This document shows positions 30,128 through 41,102 of a DNA stretch of 64,000 bases, piece by piece. The notes under the pieces are model-generated. The model was not told the origin of the DNA. It made no database searches and saw only the letters and a program-made list of their open reading frames with translations. The translations under genes and the position numbers were made by a program. This stretch comes from Deltaproteobacteria bacterium (GTDB taxonomy: Bacteria > Myxococcota_A > UBA796 > GCA-2862545), in the NCBI GenBank assembly GCA_006226595.1, contig SBGP01000013.1, positions 1-64,000 of the forward strand, written 5' to 3'. How positions within the stretch are numbered: position 1 is the stretch's first letter; each line of letters starts with the position of its first letter.

Positions 30128-30290
30128 GGCGCAGAGGTAACACCACAACGCGCCGCTCGTGAAGGGAGTCGTACCTCGGGACACCAAGGCCCCGATGCAC
30201 CCTCGCTCCCATCCCGTCTCGCAGGCCCCGAACGCCGATTGCTTCGGTGTCTGGCGCGCGTTAGCCCGCCAGGTCCAGCCCGAGGCCCGC

Positions 30291-31292
30291 ATGCGACTCA
30301 CGAGCGCGATGTTCCTGGTTCTTCTCTCCGCCTGTGGAGAGCCGAACGCCGAGACCCCCAAGGTTGCCGCCCCCGCGAACGCGGCACCCGGGCTGGTCGA
30401 GGTCCCCGAGGACCAGGTGCTCGCCATGGTCGGCGACGTGCCGGTGACCATCGCCGAGTTCAGCACCGCGGCCGCGCGGCGCGTGCCGCTCGACGGCAAG
30501 GAGCTCTCGGCCGAGGAGCGCGCCGAGGTCCTCGACGAGCTCATCTCCGAGAAGATGATGTTCCTCGAGGCCAAGCGCCTCGGCCTCGACCGCGACCCCA
30601 AGGTCCAGAAGGCCATGGTGTCCACGCTCCTGCGCCGCACCGTGTACAGCCAGGTGCGCAACAGCGACTTCAGCGAGGACGAGCTGCGCGCCTACTTCGA
30701 GGCGCACCCGGACGAGTTCATGGTCCCCGAGAAGCGCCAGATCAAGCGCATCTTCGTGCGCGGCGACGGCGAGCGCTCCATGGACGAGGCCAAGGCGCGC
30801 GCCAGCGAGGCCCGCAAGAAGATCCTCGCCGATCCCGCCCAGTTCAAGGACCTCGCCGCCGAGTACAGCGAGGACCCGTACCGCCGCCGTGGCGGTGACA
30901 TCGGCTTCGTGGCCCGCGAGGGCAAGCCCGGTGTGCCGAGTGCCATCGTCGAGAAGGCCTACACGCTGCAGCAGGGCTCCGTCTCCGAGGTCTTCGAGGC
31001 CGATGGCGGCGCCAACGTGATCTACGTCGCCAGCGTCCGCGAGCCGATCATGCGCACCTTCGAGCAGATGAAGGGCAGCGTGCTTCGCAAGGTCCGCAAC
31101 GACAAGCTCCGCGAGCTGCTCGACGGCTACGTCGACCAGGTCGAGGACAACTACACCGTCCAGCGTCACGAGGATCGCCTCGCCGACGTCACGCTCGAGC
31201 CCCTCACGGGTGCCGGGCCGGACCTTCGCCTTCCCGGTGCACCGGCGGGCCCCGAGGTCGATCTCGGGCTCGGCGGGCACGGAGGACACTGA
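30291..31292 (+). CDS. PpiC/parvulin-type peptidyl-prolyl isomerase, lipoprotein
   Basis: 333 aa. ATG 30291 begins lipoprotein signal MRLTSAMFLVLLSAC. SurA-N-like chaperone helices (60-130: VLDELISEKMMFLEAKRLGLD), then a PpiC rotamase domain (about 150-255) with KRQIKRIFVRGD, AEYSEDPYRRRGGDIGFV and SVSEVFEADGGANVIYVAS. C-terminal helical tail. Assists outer-membrane protein folding in the periplasm. Three bases before the next PPIase gene; the two form a chaperone pair. Confidence 0.88.
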   Translation: MRLTSAMFLVLLSACGEPNAETPKVAAPANAAPGLVEVPEDQVLAMVGDVPVTIAEFSTAAARRVPLDGKELSAEERAEVLDELISEKMMFLEAKRLGLDRDPKVQKAMVSTLLRRTVYSQVRNSDFSEDELRAYFEAHPDEFMVPEKRQIKRIFVRGDGERSMDEAKARASEARKKILADPAQFKDLAAEYSEDPYRRRGGDIGFVAREGKPGVPSAIVEKAYTLQQGSVSEVFEADGGANVIYVASVREPIMRTFEQMKGSVLRKVRNDKLRELLDGYVDQVEDNYTVQRHEDRLADVTLEPLTGAGPDLRLPGAPAGPEVDLGLGGHGGH

Positions 31293-31295
31293 CCC

Positions 31296-32804
31296 ATGTT
31301 CCTGCTCTGGCTCGCGCTCACCGCACCGGCCGCCACCATCGATCGCATCGCGGCGGTGGTGAACGACGACGTGATCGCGCTCTCCGAGGTCTACGAGCTC
31401 GGTGACGGCTACATCCGTCAGGCCTGTCCCCGCTTCAAGCCCGAGTGCGTGGACCAGGCCGAGGTCGAGGTGCTCGACTCGCTGATCCAGCGGAGCCTGA
31501 TCCGTCAGGAGCTGTACAAGCTCGGACTGCAGGTCACGCCCGAGGAGATCGACCGCACCATCGATCAGGTCGGTCGCGACAACGGCATCACCGATCGCGA
31601 GCAGCTGCGCCGCGAAGTCGAGCGCGCGGGCCTGACCTGGGACGTGTACCGCGAGCAGCTCACCGAGCAGCTTCGCCAGCTCAAGTTCACCGAGAGCGTG
31701 CTCCGCCCGCGGGTGGGCGTGCGCGAGGACGAGGTCCAGGAGCGCTACCGCCGCGCGACCAAGGACTACTCCGGTCCGCCGACCGCCAAGGTCGAGGCCT
31801 TGGCGCTGGCCCTGCCCGAGGAGGGCGGCCAGGAAGGCATGATCGCCACGGTGACCCAGGCCCGGGAGCTCGCCGCGAAGATCAACGCGGGCGAGGTCGA
31901 CTGGAAGCAGGCGATCGCCGAGTACGACAGCGGGCTGTACGCGCCCCGCGAGGGCGAGATGGGCAGCTTCCGCAAGGGCGAGCTCATGGAGTCGCTCGAC
32001 GCGGTGGTGTTCAGCGCCGAGGTCGGCAAGGTCAACGACCCCGTGGTCGTCGGCAGCGCCGTGTTCCTGGTCAAGGTCGTCGAGAAGAAGGCCTCGGACG
32101 TGCTCTCCTACGAGGAGGCCGCGCCGAAGATTCGCGAGCAGCTGTTCCAGGAGAAGATCGAGCGCGAGATGGAGGAGTGGACGGTGTCCGCCCGCCGCCG
32201 CGCCGCGGTGAAGGTCCTGCTCGGCGACGGCACGGGCAGCAACCAGGTCAAGCGCGTCAAGGTCGTCGACGAGCCGGCCGCCGAGGACAAGGGTCCTGGC
32301 GCGACGCCCCCGACCGACAAGCCCGCGGGAACCGCTGGCGATGGCCGCACCGGCGGCAGCGGCGCGAAGAAGCCGGAAGCCCCGGCCAAGCCCGAAGAGC
32401 CGGCGACGCCGGCCGAGCCCGCGAAGGTCGAGGCCCCCGCGCCGGCCGAGCCTGCGAAGAGCGAGGCCCCCGCCGAGTCTGCGCCGACGGACGCGCCCAC
32501 CAAGGCCGAGGAGGCCGCGGGCGACGATGGGCGCACGGGCGGCAGCGGCGAGAAGGCCGAAGGCGACGCGGGCGGCCCGCCGGCCGAGCCCGCGAAGAGC
32601 GAGGAGCCCGCCGAGCCCGCGAAGAGCGAGGAGCCCGCCGAGCCCGCGAAGAGCGAGGAGCCCGCCGAGCCCGCGAAGGGCGAGACGCCTGCCGATGGCC
32701 CCTGGGCCGCCGAGCCGGCTGCGCCGGCGCCGACCGAGCCGGCGCCCGAGACCGACGCCGAGGGCGACAAGGACGGTCCCTGGGGCGCGGAGACGCCGAA
32801 GTGA
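31296..32804 (+). CDS. SurA-like periplasmic foldase with repetitive acidic tail
   Basis: 502 aa with signal peptide (MFLLWLALTAPAA). SurA_N segment IDRIAAVVNDDVIALSEV, chaperone helices, then a parvulin-like domain (about 155-270: KVEALALALPEE, YAPREGEMGSFRKGEL, VGSAVFLVKVVEKK). The C-terminal 170 residues are Ala/Glu/Pro/Lys-rich repeats including AEPAKSEEP units and two DGRTGGSG blocks. Classical SurA lacks this tail, so it is an unusual extension. Overlaps pdxA by GTGA. Confidence 0.85.
   Translation: MFLLWLALTAPAATIDRIAAVVNDDVIALSEVYELGDGYIRQACPRFKPECVDQAEVEVLDSLIQRSLIRQELYKLGLQVTPEEIDRTIDQVGRDNGITDREQLRREVERAGLTWDVYREQLTEQLRQLKFTESVLRPRVGVREDEVQERYRRATKDYSGPPTAKVEALALALPEEGGQEGMIATVTQARELAAKINAGEVDWKQAIAEYDSGLYAPREGEMGSFRKGELMESLDAVVFSAEVGKVNDPVVVGSAVFLVKVVEKKASDVLSYEEAAPKIREQLFQEKIEREMEEWTVSARRRAAVKVLLGDGTGSNQVKRVKVVDEPAAEDKGPGATPPTDKPAGTAGDGRTGGSGAKKPEAPAKPEEPATPAEPAKVEAPAPAEPAKSEAPAESAPTDAPTKAEEAAGDDGRTGGSGEKAEGDAGGPPAEPAKSEEPAEPAKSEEPAEPAKSEEPAEPAKGETPADGPWAAEPAAPAPTEPAPETDAEGDKDGPWGAETPK
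32583..32684 (+). repeat. 27-bp tandem repeat encoding AEPAKSEEP
   Basis: Three exact 27-bp copies (32583-32609, 32610-32636, 32637-32663) and a fourth partial one (AEPAKGE), in frame within the SurA-like gene. Part of a disordered acidic tail; strain-to-strain length change is likely. Confidence 0.9.
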
Positions 32805-33733
32805 AGCCGCTGATCCTCACCCCCGGCGACCCGCTGGGAGTGGGGCCGGAGCTCGCCGCGCGCGTACTCGCCGAGCGCGTGCGCACGGGGCAGGCGGTGA
32901 ACGCCGTGTTGGCCGGAGATGGCGAGGCCATCCGCCGTGCGTGTGCGCAGGTAGCGCTGCAGATCGCCACGGACGGGCCGCTGGCCGGAGGTTCGGGCGT
33001 GGCGGTGGTCGATACCGCCGGAGGCCACGAGCCCGCCGAGGTGGCGGCGCTGCGCTGGGCCGTCGACCGCATTCGCGAGGGCATGGCCGCGGGGCTGGTC
33101 ACCGGGCCGATCCACAAAGCACGTCTGCGGGCGAGGGGCTTCACCTACAGCGGGCACACGGACTTCCTCGCCGATCTGTGCGGGGTCGAGCGGCCGGTGA
33201 TGGCCTTCGTCGGCGGCCAGCTGCGCGTGGCGCTCGTCACCGTGCACATCCCGCTGCGGGCGGTCGCGGACGCGCTGACCATCGAGCTCGTCGCTCACAC
33301 CGGGCGGGTGGCGGACGCGGCACTACGGCGCGACCTGCGCCTCGAGGCTCCGCGCATCGCGGTGCTCGGCCTCAACCCGCACGCTGGCGAGTCCGGCGTG
33401 CTCGGCCGCGAGGAGATCGACGTCATCGGCCCCGCGGTCGAGGTCTTGCGTGCGGAAGGTATCGATGCGACCGGCCCCGTCTCGGCCGAGACCGCGTTCA
33501 TGAAGGCCATGGACGGCCACTACGACCTCGTGGTCGCGATGTACCATGACCAGGGGCTTGCCCCCCTCAAGCTCGTGGACTTCGGACGGAGCGTGAACTG
33601 GACCCTCGGCCTCCCCATCGTGCGCACCTCGGTGGACCATGGCACCGCCGACGACCTCGCGTGGACGGGGCAGGCGGATCCGTCGAGCTTCGCCTCGGCG
33701 CTGCAGCTCGCCGAGCGGCTCACCTCGCGCTGA
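32801..33733 (+). CDS. pdxA: 4-hydroxythreonine-4-phosphate dehydrogenase
   Basis: 310 aa, GTG start within the preceding stop. NAD-dependent oxidation of 4-phosphohydroxy-L-threonine in vitamin B6 synthesis. Start LILTPGDPLGVGPE is the family N-terminus. Metal-binding histidines lie in SGHTDFLADL, AMYHDQGLAP and TSVDHGTADD; GPIHKA supplies the conserved Lys. About 20 residues shorter than E. coli PdxA, but complete. Located after the SurA-like gene, as in many Proteobacteria where surA and pdxA are neighbours. Confidence 0.93.
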   Translation: MKPLILTPGDPLGVGPELAARVLAERVRTGQAVNAVLAGDGEAIRRACAQVALQIATDGPLAGGSGVAVVDTAGGHEPAEVAALRWAVDRIREGMAAGLVTGPIHKARLRARGFTYSGHTDFLADLCGVERPVMAFVGGQLRVALVTVHIPLRAVADALTIELVAHTGRVADAALRRDLRLEAPRIAVLGLNPHAGESGVLGREEIDVIGPAVEVLRAEGIDATGPVSAETAFMKAMDGHYDLVVAMYHDQGLAPLKLVDFGRSVNWTLGLPIVRTSVDHGTADDLAWTGQADPSSFASALQLAERLTSR

Positions 33734-34155
33734 TCGCGTGCGGGGCCTGCGGCGGTCCCGGGGAGTTCGTGCCCGAGACCTTCGCCGATCCGCCGGTGAT
33801 CGACGAGGTCGCCTGGTCCTGCGCCGAGGGCGAGCGCGTGCTCGAGGTCTGGTCGACCTCGGTGACCGCGGGCGGCATGTTGTGGATGGACGATGGCGAG
33901 CGCCGCGAGCGACACCCGGTCCCGTCCGTCGCCGCCGAAGCGGATGACAGTGCCGACTACCTGCGGCTTCGCCTCGAGCTCATCGAGGACCCCGCGATGG
34001 TCGAGCTCGGCACGAGCAGCGCCTTTCTGTGCGGAGAGGCGATCACCCGGCAGTTGTACCTGACCTCGCAGGCGCAGCAACCCGCCGACTGCGTCGTCGA
34101 CCCCGACTTCCCGGGCATCGACGGGCTCGGGCCCTGCGAGAACTCATGGCTCTGA
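33661..34155 (+). CDS. Divergent member of the W-C lipoprotein family
   Basis: 164 aa if read from GTG 33661, which overlaps the 3' end of pdxA by 73 bp; no better ATG/GTG/TTG is in frame, so the start is uncertain. A hydrophobic run (AHLALIACGACGG) gives a lipobox-like site. The mature part (IDEVAWSCAEGERVLEVWSTS, AFLCGEAITR, then ADCVVDPDFPG) matches the pattern of four neighbours in outline: a Trp-x-Cys start, a middle Cys-Gly, and a late DC. The divergent first member of a local paralogue array. Confidence 0.5.
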   Translation: MDGAGGSVELRLGAAARRAAHLALIACGACGGPGEFVPETFADPPVIDEVAWSCAEGERVLEVWSTSVTAGGMLWMDDGERRERHPVPSVAAEADDSADYLRLRLELIEDPAMVELGTSSAFLCGEAITRQLYLTSQAQQPADCVVDPDFPGIDGLGPCENSWL

Positions 34156-34664
34156 GGCTGCCGTTGCTGCTGTGGCTCGTGGGCTGTGCCGACCTGCCGG
34201 TCGACGCCGAGGACACCGCGTGCGCCGACTGCCCGCCACCGCTCCGCCTGCAGCACATCGAGTGGGAGTGCGACGAGGAGTGGTGGTACTCCGTAGGCAC
34301 CAATGGGTGGACGGCGAGCATCGAGCTCGCGATCGCCGCGCTAGGCGAGTGGGACGGAAGCACCGCTCCGTACCGCGAGGATCACGTGCTGGTCGAGGTC
34401 GAGTGGGCCGAGGACCAGAGCTGGACGCGGTGGGAGCTCACGCTTGCTTCCTCGACCCGCGCCGACGCCGAATCCAGCGTGTCGACTGCGCTCGTGTGCG
34501 AAGTGGACGGCCCGGAGAACCACGGCTTCAGGCTCTGGGCGTACGGCGCGGAGGGTCTTGCGGACTGCGGCATCTGGGGGCAGCGCAGCGCGCAATTCTT
34601 CGACAATTCGCCTTCGCCCGCCTGCTATTGCTTCGATCAGGCGCGGGGATGCGGCATTTGGTGA
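34146..34664 (+). CDS. W-C family lipoprotein (paralogue)
   Basis: 172 aa, ATG 34146 overlapping the previous gene by 10 bp. Lipoprotein signal MALRLPLLLWLVGC. Family signature: IEWECDEEWWYSVGTNGWTAS, IAALGEWDG, the acidic-His EDHVLVEVEWAEDQSWTRWEL, ALVCEVDG, and ADCGIWGQRSA near the end followed by CYCFDQ. Function unknown; a surface or periplasmic lipoprotein with two likely disulfides. Second of the local array. Confidence 0.65.
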   Translation: MALRLPLLLWLVGCADLPVDAEDTACADCPPPLRLQHIEWECDEEWWYSVGTNGWTASIELAIAALGEWDGSTAPYREDHVLVEVEWAEDQSWTRWELTLASSTRADAESSVSTALVCEVDGPENHGFRLWAYGAEGLADCGIWGQRSAQFFDNSPSPACYCFDQARGCGIW

Positions 34665-34706
34665 ATCCGCTGACCATGCGCGTGAGCGGAGACCGTCCGC
34701 TTGGAC

Positions 34707-34736
34707 GTGACTACTGGCATTCCGGTCGGCTACAAT
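34707..34736 (+). promoter_or_regulatory. Candidate sigma-70-type promoter
   Basis: A TACAAT -10 box (34731-34736) with a weak -35 GTGACT (34707-34712) and an 18-bp spacer, 19 bp before the ATG at 34756. The surrounding 90-bp gap has no gene. Assigned by eye; the -35 is poor. Confidence 0.35.
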
Positions 34737-34755
34737 GCAGCCCGTGAGGACACGC

Positions 34756-35370
34756 ATGAAGTACGCATCGTTCGCTCTGCTTCTCCTGGCCGTTGGCTGC
34801 AACGGCAGTGGCCCCAGTGAGGGTCGTGAGGAGATCCCGTTCCCGGTGGGGCTCGGCTCCGACGCGCCGGAAGGGGAGGTGTCGCTGATCCAGGTCATCG
34901 ACTGGTACTGCGACCAGGAGACCTGGCGCTTCGAGGCCCAGACCGATGGGCTGGCCAACATCCTGCGCCTGCAGGTCATCGACACCGGCGCGTGGGACGG
35001 CGTCACCCCGGATCCGCCGCGCTCGTCGACCATCGAGGGCGGCGTGTGGCGCGAGTCCACGACCTTCTTCCTGTTCCAGGAAGACCCGTGGCTCTGGGAG
35101 AAGACCCTCGTCTACAACGACAACGAGAGCCAGGTCGCGAACTCGTCCGACTCCACGCTGTTCCAGTGTGGGCGCCGCAACGACGACAACCTCGCGTTCT
35201 CGTTCCAGGTGCTCGATGCGACCGAGCGCGTCTACGACTGTGCCCTGTGGGGCCACATGTCCGAGGCGTGGTTCGTCGACAACTGGGGCCTCAACGAGTG
35301 CCTGTGCTTCGAGCCCGAAGAGAACGGCGGCTGTGGCGACCACTCCGCGGGTGGCGACAGCGGCATGTAG
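34756..35370 (+). CDS. W-C family lipoprotein (paralogue)
   Basis: 204 aa, ATG 34756 (GTGAGGA upstream). Lipoprotein signal MKYASFALLLLAVGC. Family signature IDWYCDQETWRFEAQTDGLAN, VIDTGAWDG, WLWEKTLVYNDNE, TLFQCGRRNDDNLAFSFQ, then YDCALWGHMSEAWF and ECLCFEPEENGGCG. Same order of Trp-Cys, DG, TGAW, CG and DCAxWG as its neighbours. Role unknown. Confidence 0.65.
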   Translation: MKYASFALLLLAVGCNGSGPSEGREEIPFPVGLGSDAPEGEVSLIQVIDWYCDQETWRFEAQTDGLANILRLQVIDTGAWDGVTPDPPRSSTIEGGVWRESTTFFLFQEDPWLWEKTLVYNDNESQVANSSDSTLFQCGRRNDDNLAFSFQVLDATERVYDCALWGHMSEAWFVDNWGLNECLCFEPEENGGCGDHSAGGDSGM

Positions 35371-35404
35371 CCGCGGGTGAGCCTGCGTTCCCGACGAACG
35401 GGAA

Positions 35405-36664
35405 TCAGGCTTCTCCGGCTCCGCCGAGCAGCATCGCCAGGCGCGCCGGGTCCTCGACGAGGGACTCGGCGAGCGCGATGCGATCGGGGCCCATCTGCCC
35501 GAAGGGCGAGACCAGGGCCCAGTCCGAGAGCATGTCCAGGGGATAGTGGTCGCGGCTGCCCTCGTGCAGCCCGCTCACGTCATGCGGCCGGTTGAGGCAG
35601 GTCGCGTCGACCTCCTCGTCGTGAAAGCCGTGCACGTTGAACCAGATGTGCTCGCGGCCCTCGCTGTGGTCGGTCGGGAACGCGAGCTTGATCACGCACT
35701 GGAACACGCCGCCGCCGAGGTCGAGGATGCGTCGCAGCCGCGGCAGGCGCTCGACGGCGAGCGCGGTGGCACGCTCCGTCTCGGTGTCGCTGACGTAGAG
35801 CACCGGGTGGTCGTGGAGCACGGGCAGCAGGGCGTCGAGGCGCCCGTAGGCGTCGCTCACGAACAGGGTGGCGCGGTGCTCTCGGTGGATGGCGTCGCGA
35901 TCGGCGGCACCGCCCAGGGACATGGGGCCGCCGATGTCGAGGGCGCGGTCCACGGGCACCCACAGCAGCTCCATGTGCATGCCGGCGAGGAAGGGCGTGT
36001 CCTCGGAGGGCATGCCGTGGTCGAGCCACAGCTTGGCGGCGCTGTTCATGAGCTGGCCGATCAGGCCGACGTCCTGGCGAGGCACGGGCAGGGCGTCGAG
36101 TTCCCACAGGCCGCAGCGATGCAGCCCATGGGTGTGCAGCCACACAAGGTCGCTCTTCTCGTCGTGCACGGCGTGGATGGTCCACAGATCCTGCGGATGC
36201 GGTGGAACGGCGGTGGAGGCCGCCTCACGCAGCCACAGGCCGGGCCGCGCCTGGTACGCCGACCAGTCGAGGACCGCAACGGCGTCTGGGGCGAGGCGAT
36301 CGAGCAAGCGGATCTGCAGGTGGAAGTAGAACAGTACGTCGTCGGCGAGCTGGCACACGAGGCCGAGGGCGGCAACGCTGCTTCGCACCGCCTCCTGGTC
36401 GACATCGGAGAGCCAGCCCATGGACAGGTGGGTGTCCAGCGTCTCGCGGTCCGCGGCACGCAGGTACAGCGACAGCGGCCACTCAGCGCCGTCGAGGCCC
36501 TCGAGCATCGCATCGACCTGCCACAGCGCGTGCTCTTCACGCACGGACACCTGCTCGGCGCGACGCACGAAGGGCAGCTCGCGCAGGGAGGCGAGCACCG
36601 AGTCGGCGGACGGCGGTGTCTGCTCGACCGGGAGGCTGGCCTCGAGGCGGCTCTCGGTGTTCAT
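35405..36664 (-). CDS. DUF4026-like protein
   Basis: 419 aa cytosolic protein, ATG 36664 overlapping the preceding methyltransferase stop by four bases (ATGA). Segment DDVLFYFHLQIRLLDRLAPDAVAVLDW, WTIHAVHDEKSDLVWLHTHGLHRCGLWELDAL (each shown in part) and EGREHIWFNVHGFHDEEVDA resemble DUF4026, sometimes joined with DUF2314. No signal peptide or membrane helix. Function of these domains is unknown. The coupling to a methyltransferase gene is the only context. Confidence 0.65.
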   Translation of the reverse strand: MNTESRLEASLPVEQTPPSADSVLASLRELPFVRRAEQVSVREEHALWQVDAMLEGLDGAEWPLSLYLRAADRETLDTHLSMGWLSDVDQEAVRSSVAALGLVCQLADDVLFYFHLQIRLLDRLAPDAVAVLDWSAYQARPGLWLREAASTAVPPHPQDLWTIHAVHDEKSDLVWLHTHGLHRCGLWELDALPVPRQDVGLIGQLMNSAAKLWLDHGMPSEDTPFLAGMHMELLWVPVDRALDIGGPMSLGGAADRDAIHREHRATLFVSDAYGRLDALLPVLHDHPVLYVSDTETERATALAVERLPRLRRILDLGGGVFQCVIKLAFPTDHSEGREHIWFNVHGFHDEEVDATCLNRPHDVSGLHEGSRDHYPLDMLSDWALVSPFGQMGPDRIALAESLVEDPARLAMLLGGAGEA

Positions 36665-37548
36665 CGGGCGGGCTCGGCGGCGATGCTCACCGAGTCGTCC
36701 TCGATCGAGGCGACGATGGCGAGCTCGCCCCCTGCGCCGACGCCGATCTCGCTGGGCCAGGCACTCACGAACTGTCCCCAGTGGCTCGCCGTTCCCGGCG
36801 GGTTCGTCATGACGATGCCGTCGTCGAGCTCCGCCTCGAACCAGAGCAGGGCGCCCGCGATGGGCCCCGGGTCGGTGCAGGTAACCACGCGCCGCACCTG
36901 TTCCTCGGGCTCGACGCCGGTCCCGAGAGCGAGGTCCCAGAGCAGGACGGGCTCCGAGGCGAGGCGTTCGCCCCCGGTGACGTAGCGGTACGGACCGGGC
37001 GACCGAAGGCCCTCGAGCAGGGGGCCGACCTCGAGGTCCAGGCTCTTCCCCACCTGACGTACCGCCGCGAGGGCGTCGCGGTACTCACGAGCCGAGTCGG
37101 GACTGCGAACGAGCTGTGCCCAGACCCTCAGGCGGCGCGGGGCGAGGGTGCCGCCGGGTACGACCCAGGCGGCGGCCGCTTCGGTGGCCTCGACCACGCC
37201 CTCGTAGAACGGGTCGGAGTTGAGCAGCTCGGAGAAGGCGAGGTCCACGGGCCGTGGATCGAGCTCTTCGACCGTGCCCTCGAGCAGGTGTACGCGGTCA
37301 GCCAGCCCGTTGGCGGCGATGAGCTCGCGGGCGACCTCGGCAATCGCGGTCGGCTCGACGGCCCACACCTCTCGCGCGCCCATCTTCGCGGCCGCACAGC
37401 TCCACAGCCCGGTGCCGCAGCCGACCTCGAGTACACGAGCGCCCGGAGCCCGGCGATGGAGCAGGCTCAGCAGCGCCTCGTTGCGCGGCTCGTCGGAGAG
37501 CAGCCGCAGGTGCTCCCAGGGATCCGCAAACCGCTCGACTCCTTCCAC
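36661..37548 (-). CDS. SAM-dependent methyltransferase, class I (PRMT-like)
   Basis: 295 aa, GTG start at 37548 five bases after GGAGG. Motif I VLEVGCGTGLWSCAAAKMGA binds S-adenosylmethionine; the acidic loop VWAVEPTAIAEVAREL and VDLAFSELLNSDPFYEGV (with a Glu reminiscent of the protein-arginine methyltransferase double-E loop) follow; C-terminal beta domain (GIVMTNPPGTASHWGQ) matches the PRMT-type barrel (substrate side HWGQ). Probably methylates a protein or small molecule; target unknown. Translationally coupled to the DUF4026-like gene. Confidence 0.8.
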   Translation of the reverse strand: MEGVERFADPWEHLRLLSDEPRNEALLSLLHRRAPGARVLEVGCGTGLWSCAAAKMGAREVWAVEPTAIAEVARELIAANGLADRVHLLEGTVEELDPRPVDLAFSELLNSDPFYEGVVEATEAAAAWVVPGGTLAPRRLRVWAQLVRSPDSAREYRDALAAVRQVGKSLDLEVGPLLEGLRSPGPYRYVTGGERLASEPVLLWDLALGTGVEPEEQVRRVVTCTDPGPIAGALLWFEAELDDGIVMTNPPGTASHWGQFVSAWPSEIGVGAGGELAIVASIEDDSVSIAAEPAR

Positions 37549-37768
37549 ATGACCTCCGGACGAGGGACGATAGCAGGTGCCCACCGAGCGGCGGCATGAC
37601 GTCGGTCTGTGCGGCGGAGAGGGGTGGCCGCTGCGCCCGCTGTGAAATGAGATGACATCTCGCGGAAGTGCCGATGGCGAGCGGCTGATCGCGGTGCGAC
37701 ACCGCTCGCGGAGCCCGGGGAGATGAAGAGCGACGGCAGCTCCGCGTCTGTGTCGGCGAGGAGGACGC

Positions 37769-38302
37769 ATGATTCGCATCACCACCCTTGCTCTGACGCT
37801 CGCCGGTCTGGTCGCTTGTACCGGGCTTCCCGACGCCGACTCCGGCGATACCTGGGGCGACACGGCGGTCGCCGACTTCCAGGGCCCGTGGCAGATTGCC
37901 GAGGTCCAGTGGCAGTGCGAGCCGGGCTCCAACACCTGGACCTACTACGCGCGCACCGACGGCTGGGCGACATCGATGTCGCTGGACATCGTCGAGACCG
38001 GCGACGGCAACTGGTCCGAGAACCCGTCGATGGTCTGGGACGAGTACCACGACTTCGACGACAACCTCGCCTACGCCGAAGACGGCAGCTGGGACGAGTG
38101 GCAGATCGTGCTGCGCGGTGTGTCGTCGATGGGCTCGCAGGTCAGCGGCGAGACGACCTTGTTCACGTGCGGCTACCACTCCAACGACTCGCTGTCGTGG
38201 AAGGCGACGATGTACGGCGACAACAGCGCGCTCGACTGCGCCGTGTGGGGCCATCGTCCCATCGAAGCCTACGGCAGCGGCTGCTACGTCTTCGACTTCT
38301 AG
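37769..38302 (+). CDS. W-C family lipoprotein (paralogue)
   Basis: 177 aa, ATG 37769 after GAGGAGGACGC. Signal MIRITTLALTLAGLVAC. DTWGDT linker then VQWQCEPGSNTWTYYARTDGWATS, DIVETGDGNW, EYHDFDDNLAY, SWDEWQIVLRG, TLFTCGYHSNDSLSWKA and DCAVWGHRPIEA ending CYVFDF. Near-perfect match in layout to the gene at 38679. A 375-bp gap follows with repeats and a terminator. Confidence 0.7.
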   Translation: MIRITTLALTLAGLVACTGLPDADSGDTWGDTAVADFQGPWQIAEVQWQCEPGSNTWTYYARTDGWATSMSLDIVETGDGNWSENPSMVWDEYHDFDDNLAYAEDGSWDEWQIVLRGVSSMGSQVSGETTLFTCGYHSNDSLSWKATMYGDNSALDCAVWGHRPIEAYGSGCYVFDF

Positions 38303-38491
38303 CAGGCTGCTGGACCGGTCGGGCCGAGCCGTCTGAACGCGGCGGGCGAGTGTTCAGCATCCTGTCGGACTGGGCAAGAAGCGGGCCAAGCACATGCCTC
38401 GCGGGCCCGCTCACGCGGCCGGCGAGGTGATTCGGCGCGGGTTGCGTCGGCGGCCCGAGGCTCGTGAGTGCCTGGGAACAGGCCACTGAGA

Positions 38492-38540
38492 GGGGTCTGA
38501 CCCCGCCCGGGGGTCTGACCCTCGTGCGGGGTCAGACCCC
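38492..38540. repeat. Three copies of GGGGTCTGACCCC palindrome-like repeat
   Basis: The gene-free stretch 38303-38678 holds GGGGTCTGACCCC (38492-38504), GGGGTCTGACCCT (38510-38522) and the inverted GGGGTCAGACCCC (38528-38540). Copies one and three are exact reverse complements and can form a long hairpin. Such GGGGTCAGACCCC elements resemble dispersed intergenic repeats of many GC-rich bacteria. Apart from this and the terminator at 38633, I see no gene or other structure in the stretch. Confidence 0.75.
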
Positions 38541-38632
38541 CCCTCGAGGAGGGCCTCGATCTCGCTACGCGAACCCCTGCGATTCGACGATTTTCGTCGC
38601 TCCCGGCGGCTCGCGGGCCCCAGACGCAAGAA

Positions 38633-38660
38633 ACCCCGACTCGGCGAACCGAGCCGGGGT
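38633..38660 (-). terminator. Rho-independent terminator
   Basis: On the reverse strand a 12-bp stem (ACCCCGGCTCGG / CCGAGTCGGGGT, one G-T pair) with a TTCG loop is followed by TTTCTT. It begins about 19 bp beyond the stop of the lipoprotein gene at 38679, which it should terminate. Confidence 0.85.
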
Positions 38661-38678
38661 CTCTATTACCCGAGGGGC

Positions 38679-39221
38679 TTACTGCAGGACGGTGCAGCTG
38701 TTGCCACTGTGGGTGTTGTAGTAGTCGGCGGCCTCGTTGCCGTAGACAGCGCAGTCCGCGCCGTTCTCGCCGAAGTCCGAGGTGGCCATCCACGCGAGCT
38801 CGGCCTCACCGTGCGTACCGCAGGTGAAGAAGGTGCTCTCGCCGGAAACCACGCCACCGGTGGTGGAGGACTTGGTGAGGGTCGCGCCCCAGGTGTCCCA
38901 GGAGCCGTCGTCAGCGTACTGACCCTGGCTGAGGGTGTGGAACTCGTCCCAGCCGTTGTAGGTGTTCGGGTCGTTCAGACCGCCCCAGGCACCGGTCTCG
39001 ACGATGTCGAGGTCGATGGCGTCGGCCCAGCCGTCGCTGTTGACGGTGTAGGTGTACGAGCCGTCGGTCGTGTCACAGGACCAGCTGAAGCCGGTGGTCT
39101 GCCACGGACCCTCGTAGACCGTCTCGGTCTCGGTGTCGCTCTCGACGGGATCGGGATCGCCTTCGGTGCAGGCGGTCAGGGCGAGCATGCCCACGGCCAT
39201 GGCCAGGGTAAACTTGTTCAT
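38679..39221 (-). CDS. W-C family lipoprotein (paralogue)
   Basis: 180 aa, ATG 39221 after AAGGAGACGC. Signal MNKFTLAMAVGMLALTAC and a DTETETV linker. FSWSCDTTDGSYTYTVNSDGWADA, DIVETGAWGG, GWDEFHTLSQGQYADDGSWDTW, TFFTCGTHGEAELAWMATS and DCAVYGNEAADYY, ending in CTVLQ. Ends at a strong terminator. Paralogue of 37769 on the opposite strand, facing it across 376 bp. Confidence 0.7.
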   Translation of the reverse strand: MNKFTLAMAVGMLALTACTEGDPDPVESDTETETVYEGPWQTTGFSWSCDTTDGSYTYTVNSDGWADAIDLDIVETGAWGGLNDPNTYNGWDEFHTLSQGQYADDGSWDTWGATLTKSSTTGGVVSGESTFFTCGTHGEAELAWMATSDFGENGADCAVYGNEAADYYNTHSGNSCTVLQ

Positions 39222-39431: not shown

Positions 39432-41102
39432 CTATTCGTTGCGCGCGGGTACCGCTGATGACGCCGACGTACCGCTGCGGCTCCGGTTCTGGAACAGTGC
39501 GCGCTCCACCTTGTCGAGCAGACGCGCCAGCCCCTCACCGGTGAGCGCGCTCACGGGTACGCCGTCGTAGCGGTCGACCAGGTTCGCGAGAACCTCGGGC
39601 TCGGCGGCGTCGGCCTTGTTCCACACGCGCAGGCTCGGCCGGTCGTCGAGACCGAGCTCGCCGAGGATGTGCTCTACGTCCGCGAGCTGCTCCTCGACGT
39701 CGGGGTCGCTGGCATCGAGCACGTGCAGCAACAGGTGCGCGCCATCGAGCTCCTCGAGGGTCGCCTTGAACGCTTCGACCAGGGTCTTGGGCAGGTCCTG
39801 GATGAAGCCCACGGTGTCGGTGACGATGATCTCGCGCTCTTCAGGGAAGCGCAGCCGTCGGCTGGTGGGGTCGAGGGTCGCGAACAGCTGGTCCTCGGCG
39901 ATGACCTCGGAGCTCGTCATCCGGTTGAGCAGCGTGGACTTGCCGGCATTCGTGTACCCGACGATGGACGCCACCGGGATCTGCGACTTCTCGCGACGCG
40001 CGCGACGGGTGGCGCGGTTCTTCGCGAGCTTGGTGAGCTGGCGCTCGAGGCGCGTCAACCGCTCTCCCGCTCGGCGACGGTTGATCTCGAGCTTGGTCTC
40101 GCCGGGGCCGCGTCCGCCGATGCCGCCGGTGAGCCGTGACATGGCCGTGGGCATCAATGCGAGGCGCGGGGCGCGGTAGCGGAGCTGCGCGAGCTCGACC
40201 TGGAGCTTGCCTTCTCGGCTGGTGGCGTGCTGCGCGAAGATGTCGAGGATGAGCTGGGTCCGATCGAGCACCTTGAGGTCGGTGGTCGTCGCGATGTTGC
40301 GCAGCTGGCTCGGCGACAGCTCGCGGTCGAAGATCAGCGCGTCGGCGCCGAGGTGCATGCTGCGCACCACCAGTTCCTGCAGCTTGCCGCTGCCGATACA
40401 GGTCTTGCCGTCGAGCTTGCGCCGGCTCTGGAGCACGCTGTCGAGCACCTGCAGCCCCGCGGTGTCCGCGAGACGCTCGAGCTCGGCCAGGCCGCGCTTG
40501 GCGCGCTCGGCATCGTCGAGGGTGATGCCGACGAGGATCACGCCCTCCTTGCCGTCCACGCGCGTGAGCTGCGTGTTCTTCGCGAACTGAGCCTCGAGGT
40601 CCTCGATCTCGGCGGCGAAGTCGCGGTCCCAGTCGTGGATGCTCGCGATCTCTTCGACCCGATGTGGCTCCCCGGCATCGGGCGGCAGCAGGGTCGCGAG
40701 GTGCACGCGGCCCGGCAGGCCATCGGGAAGCACCTCGATCGTCGCCACGGCATCGAGCTGGAGCAGTGCGAGGTCGGTGAGGTCGTCCTCCTCGAGACCC
40801 TCGGGACGCAGGGAGGTGTGGATCAGCCGCACGCCGCGGAAGCGCGACGCGCCCGCGCGCCGAGGCCCGAGGTCGGGCAGGAACACGCGGTGGGCCTCGC
40901 CGACGACGACGTACTCGATCTGACCCAGGCGATCGATGAGGACGGCGATGCGGCGTCCCGTGTCTCGCGTCAGCTCGGTGAGTCGGCGCGCGAGCGGCGC
41001 CGAGATCAGCTCGTCGCGACCGACGCGTCGGCGGTAGAGCGCGCGCAGATCGCGGGCCTGGCTGGCCTTGAGGCCGGTGGTGTTTCCGTGCAGCGGTTGG
41101 AT
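39432..41102 (-). CDS. hflX: GTPase HflX (start codon non-canonical)
   Basis: 556 aa when the conserved N-terminus is included. GTPase that binds and splits stalled 70S ribosomes. GTP-binding motifs: G1 GYTNAGKSTLLN, G3 DTVGFI, G4 NKAD, plus the HflX-specific GGIGGRGPGETKLE segment. The first in-frame ATG/GTG/TTG is GTG 40886, but coding similarity continues 72 codons upstream (IQPLHGNTTGLKASQARDL, LYRRRVGRDELIS, GQIEYVVVGEAHRVFLPDLG), up to a stop at 41126-41128. The N-terminus aligns to the usual Met at an ATC codon (41102), so ATC or CTG (41093) may start translation. Minus-strand, monocistronic. Confidence 0.88.
   Translation of the reverse strand: MQPLHGNTTGLKASQARDLRALYRRRVGRDELISAPLARRLTELTRDTGRRIAVLIDRLGQIEYVVVGEAHRVFLPDLGPRRAGASRFRGVRLIHTSLRPEGLEEDDLTDLALLQLDAVATIEVLPDGLPGRVHLATLLPPDAGEPHRVEEIASIHDWDRDFAAEIEDLEAQFAKNTQLTRVDGKEGVILVGITLDDAERAKRGLAELERLADTAGLQVLDSVLQSRRKLDGKTCIGSGKLQELVVRSMHLGADALIFDRELSPSQLRNIATTTDLKVLDRTQLILDIFAQHATSREGKLQVELAQLRYRAPRLALMPTAMSRLTGGIGGRGPGETKLEINRRRAGERLTRLERQLTKLAKNRATRRARREKSQIPVASIVGYTNAGKSTLLNRMTSSEVIAEDQLFATLDPTSRRLRFPEEREIIVTDTVGFIQDLPKTLVEAFKATLEELDGAHLLLHVLDASDPDVEEQLADVEHILGELGLDDRPSLRVWNKADAAEPEVLANLVDRYDGVPVSALTGEGLARLLDKVERALFQNRSRSGTSASSAVPARNE

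Follow-up and report, generated by a model that had tools for sequence, protein, structure and literature searches.

A nearly order-restricted family of small lipoproteins with a predicted Ig/FN3-like domain in the hflX-pdxA neighbourhood

In Escherichia coli, the surA and pdxA genes are adjacent. In enterobacteria, an aspartate after the lipobox cysteine of a lipoprotein can mean retention in the inner membrane, a rule that is not established for the group of the bacterium studied here. We examined a stretch of 64,000 nucleotides (hereafter the window) from a deltaproteobacterial genome (GCA_006226595.1, contig SBGP01000013.1, positions 1 to 64,000). The surA and pdxA genes were found to be adjacent in the window as well; the difference from E. 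coli is that the block here borders a cassette of lipoprotein genes and hflX. A lipobox-like motif was present in nearly all members of this lipoprotein family, including all five proteins of the window. Each member of the family contained a type II signal peptide, then a tether that is short and often acidic, and a single domain. The aspartate directly after the lipobox cysteine was found in some members, mostly of clade B of the family tree, and in none of the five window proteins. The proteins would be exported by Sec, lipidated and anchored in the outer membrane.

Gene content of the cassette

The conserved flank on one side of the cassette contained genes for a PpiC-type parvulin lipoprotein (30159..31292, + strand; PF13145/PF00639 and synteny) and a SurA-type periplasmic chaperone (31296..32804, + strand; PF09312, E 1e-14, and synteny), followed by pdxA (32801..33733, + strand; PF04166, E 1e-95). 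The conserved flank on the opposite side was the gene for the HflX GTPase (39432..40886, − strand; PF13167/PF16360/PF01926). Five lipoprotein genes, termed F1 to F5, were present between the flanks. F1 (33661..34155, + strand), an open frame with an AlphaFold2 model, is the clade A (core) member. Its frame starts within the 3′ end of pdxA, which its signal region overlaps, and its lipobox is LIAC, with the cysteine encoded at about 33739. The other four are clade B members, namely F2 (34146..34664, + strand; lipobox LVGC), whose first 10 bases overlap the end of F1, F3 (34756..35370, + strand; AVGC), F4 (37769..38302, + strand; LVAC) and F5 (38679..39221, − strand; LTAC).

F1, F2 and F3 lie on the pdxA strand, and two unrelated genes were found to be inserted between F3 and F4. 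One encodes a DUF4026/DUF2314 protein (35405..36664, − strand) and was present in this genome only among the cassettes read, being absent from that of the sister species. The other encodes a PRMT-like methyltransferase (36661..37551, − strand; PF13649, with a weak PRMT_C match, E 3e-4), which was also found in the sister-species cassette and in none of the cassettes of other relatives that were read. An earlier note on this DNA had counted five or six lipoproteins from 33661 to 39221; five, not six, were recovered in this range. The same note had one copy flipped in strand. An inversion does exist, but the inverted copy is F4 (+ strand), as judged against its 68–70% identical sister-species counterpart, whereas F5 (− strand) keeps the orientation of hflX. 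A scan of genome contigs gave a single locus, L045, which is the contig of the sister species (genome G001, matching the MAG record JAGSGY010000063.1).

A terminator-like hairpin was present at 38635-38653 (− strand), directly after F5, and F5 ranked 4th among the 56 window genes in codon adaptation. The hairpin and the high codon bias suggest that F5 is separately and strongly expressed. The sister-species counterparts of F4 and F5 were likewise the highest in codon adaptation among the five, and F5 and F4 are probably the most abundant of the five proteins.

The region between F4 and F5 also contained one array of the palindromic repeat GGGGTCWGACCCC, at 38492-38504 and 38528-38540. Copies of GGGGTCWGACCCC, often 18 bases apart, were found at 59 places in this genome, at 1 place in the sister species and at 0–4 in 17 other relatives. 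It is a dispersed repeat that has expanded in this species.

Homology, conserved residues and predicted fold

Pairwise blastp among F2, F3, F4 and F5 gave E-values from 5e-36 to 1e-9 with identities of 27–41%, whereas F1 reached only E 0.02. Profiles built without F1 found it, with E 1.9e-23 when made from the clade A members of other genomes and E 1.1e-10 when made from their clade B members; the best E-value among 100 shuffled window proteins, used as a control, was 1.6. Judged from these searches, the five lipoprotein genes are true homologues. The cysteine and tryptophan columns aligned from the lipobox Cys to the final Cys, in the order lipobox Cys, W-x-C, TDGW, W-x-E-x-H, GSWDxW, S/T-x-F-x-C, DCxxWG and final Cys. 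No Pfam or NCBIfam model matched the five window proteins at E<=5. In 37 members searched against Pfam, no Ig or FN3 family was found at E<=1; the only repeated match was the lipoprotein attachment motif LPAM_1, in three members, and one member matched Cadherin_4 (E 0.009). None of the PADLOC anti-phage defence models matched any of the 37 members at E<=1, the PDB sequence search gave nothing beyond one chance-level match (E 1.6), and no publication on the cassette was found in a literature search. By these comparisons, the family of small lipoproteins, with their predicted Ig-like fold, is previously undescribed and contains no named domain. The shared order of Trp and Cys motifs, the high divergence and the lack of a named domain, all reported in the earlier note, were borne out.

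Residues are numbered as in mature F4. All four cysteines of the domain were found in 54 of the 65 members. C34 and C118 were lost together in 5 members; in 5 others C118 alone was lost, and a new cysteine was present five residues after C34. C141 and C156 were present in 64 of 65; the remaining one is a fragment at the end of a contig. This covariation points to two disulfides, C34–C118 and C141–C156. The E-x-H motif (E76 and H78) was complete in 61 of 65 members, and both residues were 97% conserved, against a mean column identity of 22% for the proteins. F3 was found to lack the histidine of the motif, which its sister-species counterpart retains. Other conserved polar residues were few (D140, 82%; D93, 69%), and the conserved tryptophans were W41, W50, W74 and W92.

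Some copies were found outside the cassette. Two of them (L013, about 1300-1947, and L064:6501-7226) contained an N-terminal DNDxDGxxDCxDPDC-like motif, followed in the L064 copy by an Asp/Ser/Thr repeat stalk. Such copies put the domain on a different stalk, which suggests that it is an autonomous module.

Structures were modelled, as the earlier note had proposed, with AlphaFold2 from ten sequences, those of the window and of the sister-species locus. The models of F4 and F1 were all-beta, with pLDDT of 80 and 82 and pTM of 0.75 and 0.76, respectively, and the domain is predicted to be an Ig/FN3-like beta-sandwich. The F4 model resembled FN3 (3t1w) and GH2 Ig-like domains, with a best VIA Z-score of 8.0 (rmsd 2.4 over 88 residues). 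For the F1 model, Foldseek placed CBM21 domains first (7qm2_D, E 9e-4, probability 1.00), and the best VIA Z-score was 7.5; the VIA matches also included CBM56 and starch-binding N-domains. Z-scores of 8.0 and 7.5 indicate a common arrangement, not family membership. No family was clearly outstanding among the VIA and Foldseek matches, and the viral structure library gave nothing below E 0.001.

Distribution, position and history of the family

Genomes were searched with profiles for further copies, which the earlier note had also proposed. Of 58 relatives, 36 gave a match to a four-sequence profile, and a 37-sequence profile found the family in 58 of the 63 genomes of the order that were searched. 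Outside the order, the 37-sequence profile matched 1 of 8 genomes of the same class. The rest of the phylum sample contained three matches, two of them near the threshold; the third, a distant member from another class (genome G268, L092:4653-5255, E 3.6e-10), kept the E-x-H and cysteine pattern. The family is nearly restricted to one bacterial order, where nearly every sampled genome contained one to five copies in a shared chromosomal spot. This unnamed family could mark the whole order, and its profile can be searched by others.

The position of the family was found to be conserved. In 57 of the 58 genomes of the order with the family, at least one copy was located no more than 6 kb from hflX or pdxA; taken singly, hflX had a member at this distance in 52 of the 56 genomes having both, and pdxA in 41 of the 57 having both, these counts being taken from the contig coordinates of the members, hflX and pdxA and lowered by contig breaks. 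Among the matches listed, 100 of 150 copies were in the slot. The neighbourhood was usually continued on one side by surA, ppiC and often a histidine kinase gene, and in many genomes two SPFH-domain genes were found on the other side, beyond hflX. In eight genomes from four families, the clade A gene overlapped the stop codon of hflX by ATGA or GTGA. In an outgroup family of the same class, hflX and pdxA were close together with no member of the lipoprotein family between them, and in two of its genomes a kinase-like gene was present there. The linkage of hflX and pdxA therefore predates the cassette, which entered an older linkage. The conserved neighbourhood may stem from slow rearrangement instead of shared function.

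A tree of 65 members contained a clade of 22 rows, clade A (support 97/98), which includes F1, and the remainder forms clade B. The copies of clade B clustered largely by lineage, which points to independent tandem expansions in several of the order's families. The local duplication described in the earlier note is real as a tandem expansion, but the cassette is an old inherited fixture, order-wide and fixed in position, rather than the product of a recent duplication burst. Copy number drifts by lineage within a slot that is old and fixed, and it was the comparison of relatives that reversed the reading of fast duplication.

A counterpart of each of the five window genes was found in the sister species, at 46–68% identity, the flanking pdxA and hflX being 74 and 83% identical, respectively, in the same comparison. 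On the tree, each window gene grouped with its counterpart in a supported pair or trio. The counterpart of F5 grouped with a second, extra-cassette copy of the sister species, so strict one-to-one orthology is uncertain for F5. The NG86 dN/dS ratios against the sister species were 0.35–0.49 for F1–F4 and 0.91 for F5, which showed low dS and strong codon bias; the ratios are rough because synonymous changes are numerous. Lying below 1, they suggest purifying selection on the window genes. No excess of divergence was found in the loops, and differences were equally frequent in strands and loops.

Possible roles and comparison with known domains

We propose, with about an even chance of being right, that these nearly order-restricted lipoproteins carry a predicted Ig/FN3-like sandwich, stapled by two putative disulfides, as an envelope module that would bind or scaffold without catalytic activity. 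In this reading the hflX-pdxA-surA-ppiC neighbourhood contains an ancestral clade A copy, next to hflX, and tandem duplication in that slot has produced clade B copies specific to each lineage. Clade A would be the housekeeping form and clade B the sub-functionalised copies, with the lipid-tethered domain at work in the cell envelope. Should the family prove to be a core component of the envelope, it would be a concrete target for studies of how a little-studied group builds its surface. A further reading, in which a near order-specific core envelope family has its ancestral copy translationally coupled to hflX and its clade B paralogues adapted to different envelope sites, is quite unlikely; if true, the synthesis of an outer-membrane lipoprotein would be tied to a ribosome-acting GTPase.

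Other roles were weighed against the same evidence. The CBM21 domains that rank best in Foldseek for the F1 model, the CBM56 and starch-binding N-domains in VIA and the richness of the members in conserved tryptophan would suit CBM-like lipoproteins that bind glycans on the outer membrane and hold polysaccharide at the cell surface. This role is unlikely, as Z-scores no higher than 7.5 reflect a common arrangement, the top matches of the F4 model are FN3 and GH2 Ig-like domains instead, and the cassette contains no glycan-active genes. It is improbable that the proteins face the periplasm as partners in the assembly of the outer membrane, with a functional link to SurA and PpiC, the chaperones encoded beside the cassette. 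The surA-ppiC-pdxA block does flank the cassette in most relatives; however, the outgroup family keeps this block near hflX without the lipoprotein family, and the closest coupling is with hflX, not surA.

The near-invariance of E76 and H78 in otherwise variable proteins could point to a domain that binds metal or acts as an enzyme, with these two residues at its centre, but the scarcity of further conserved polar residues and the loss of the histidine in F3, with its retention in the sister-species counterpart, make this very unlikely. We give as little credence to an arms race in which the proteins diversify as surface receptors or for immunity. The earlier note had favoured rapid divergence of this kind, for binding diverse ligands or for immunity, and had proposed a test for selection on variable loops. 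Tandem paralogues as divergent as F2–F5 and the ratio of F5 would agree with it; the low dS of F5, however, accompanies strong codon bias, and the ratios of F1–F4, the sister-species counterparts of all five genes, the locus fixed across the order, the strands as variable as the loops and the lack of a PADLOC match in the 37 members all argue against it.

As a putative binding or scaffold module, the domain can be compared with two groups of known domains. It is similar to FN3 and Ig-like domains (3t1w, GH2) in the predicted sandwich of F4, with about 3–12% identity in the rows listed, and differs from them as a lipid-anchored single domain with two putative disulfides and no Pfam Ig or FN3 match. 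The similarity to CBM21 and CBM56 domains (7qm2, 7qfa, 5t7a) lies in the sandwich of the F1 model, with Foldseek E-values from 9e-4 to 6e-3 for CBM21 and VIA Z-scores of about 7. There is no sequence match between them, and the cysteines and the E-x-H motif are specific to the lipoprotein family.
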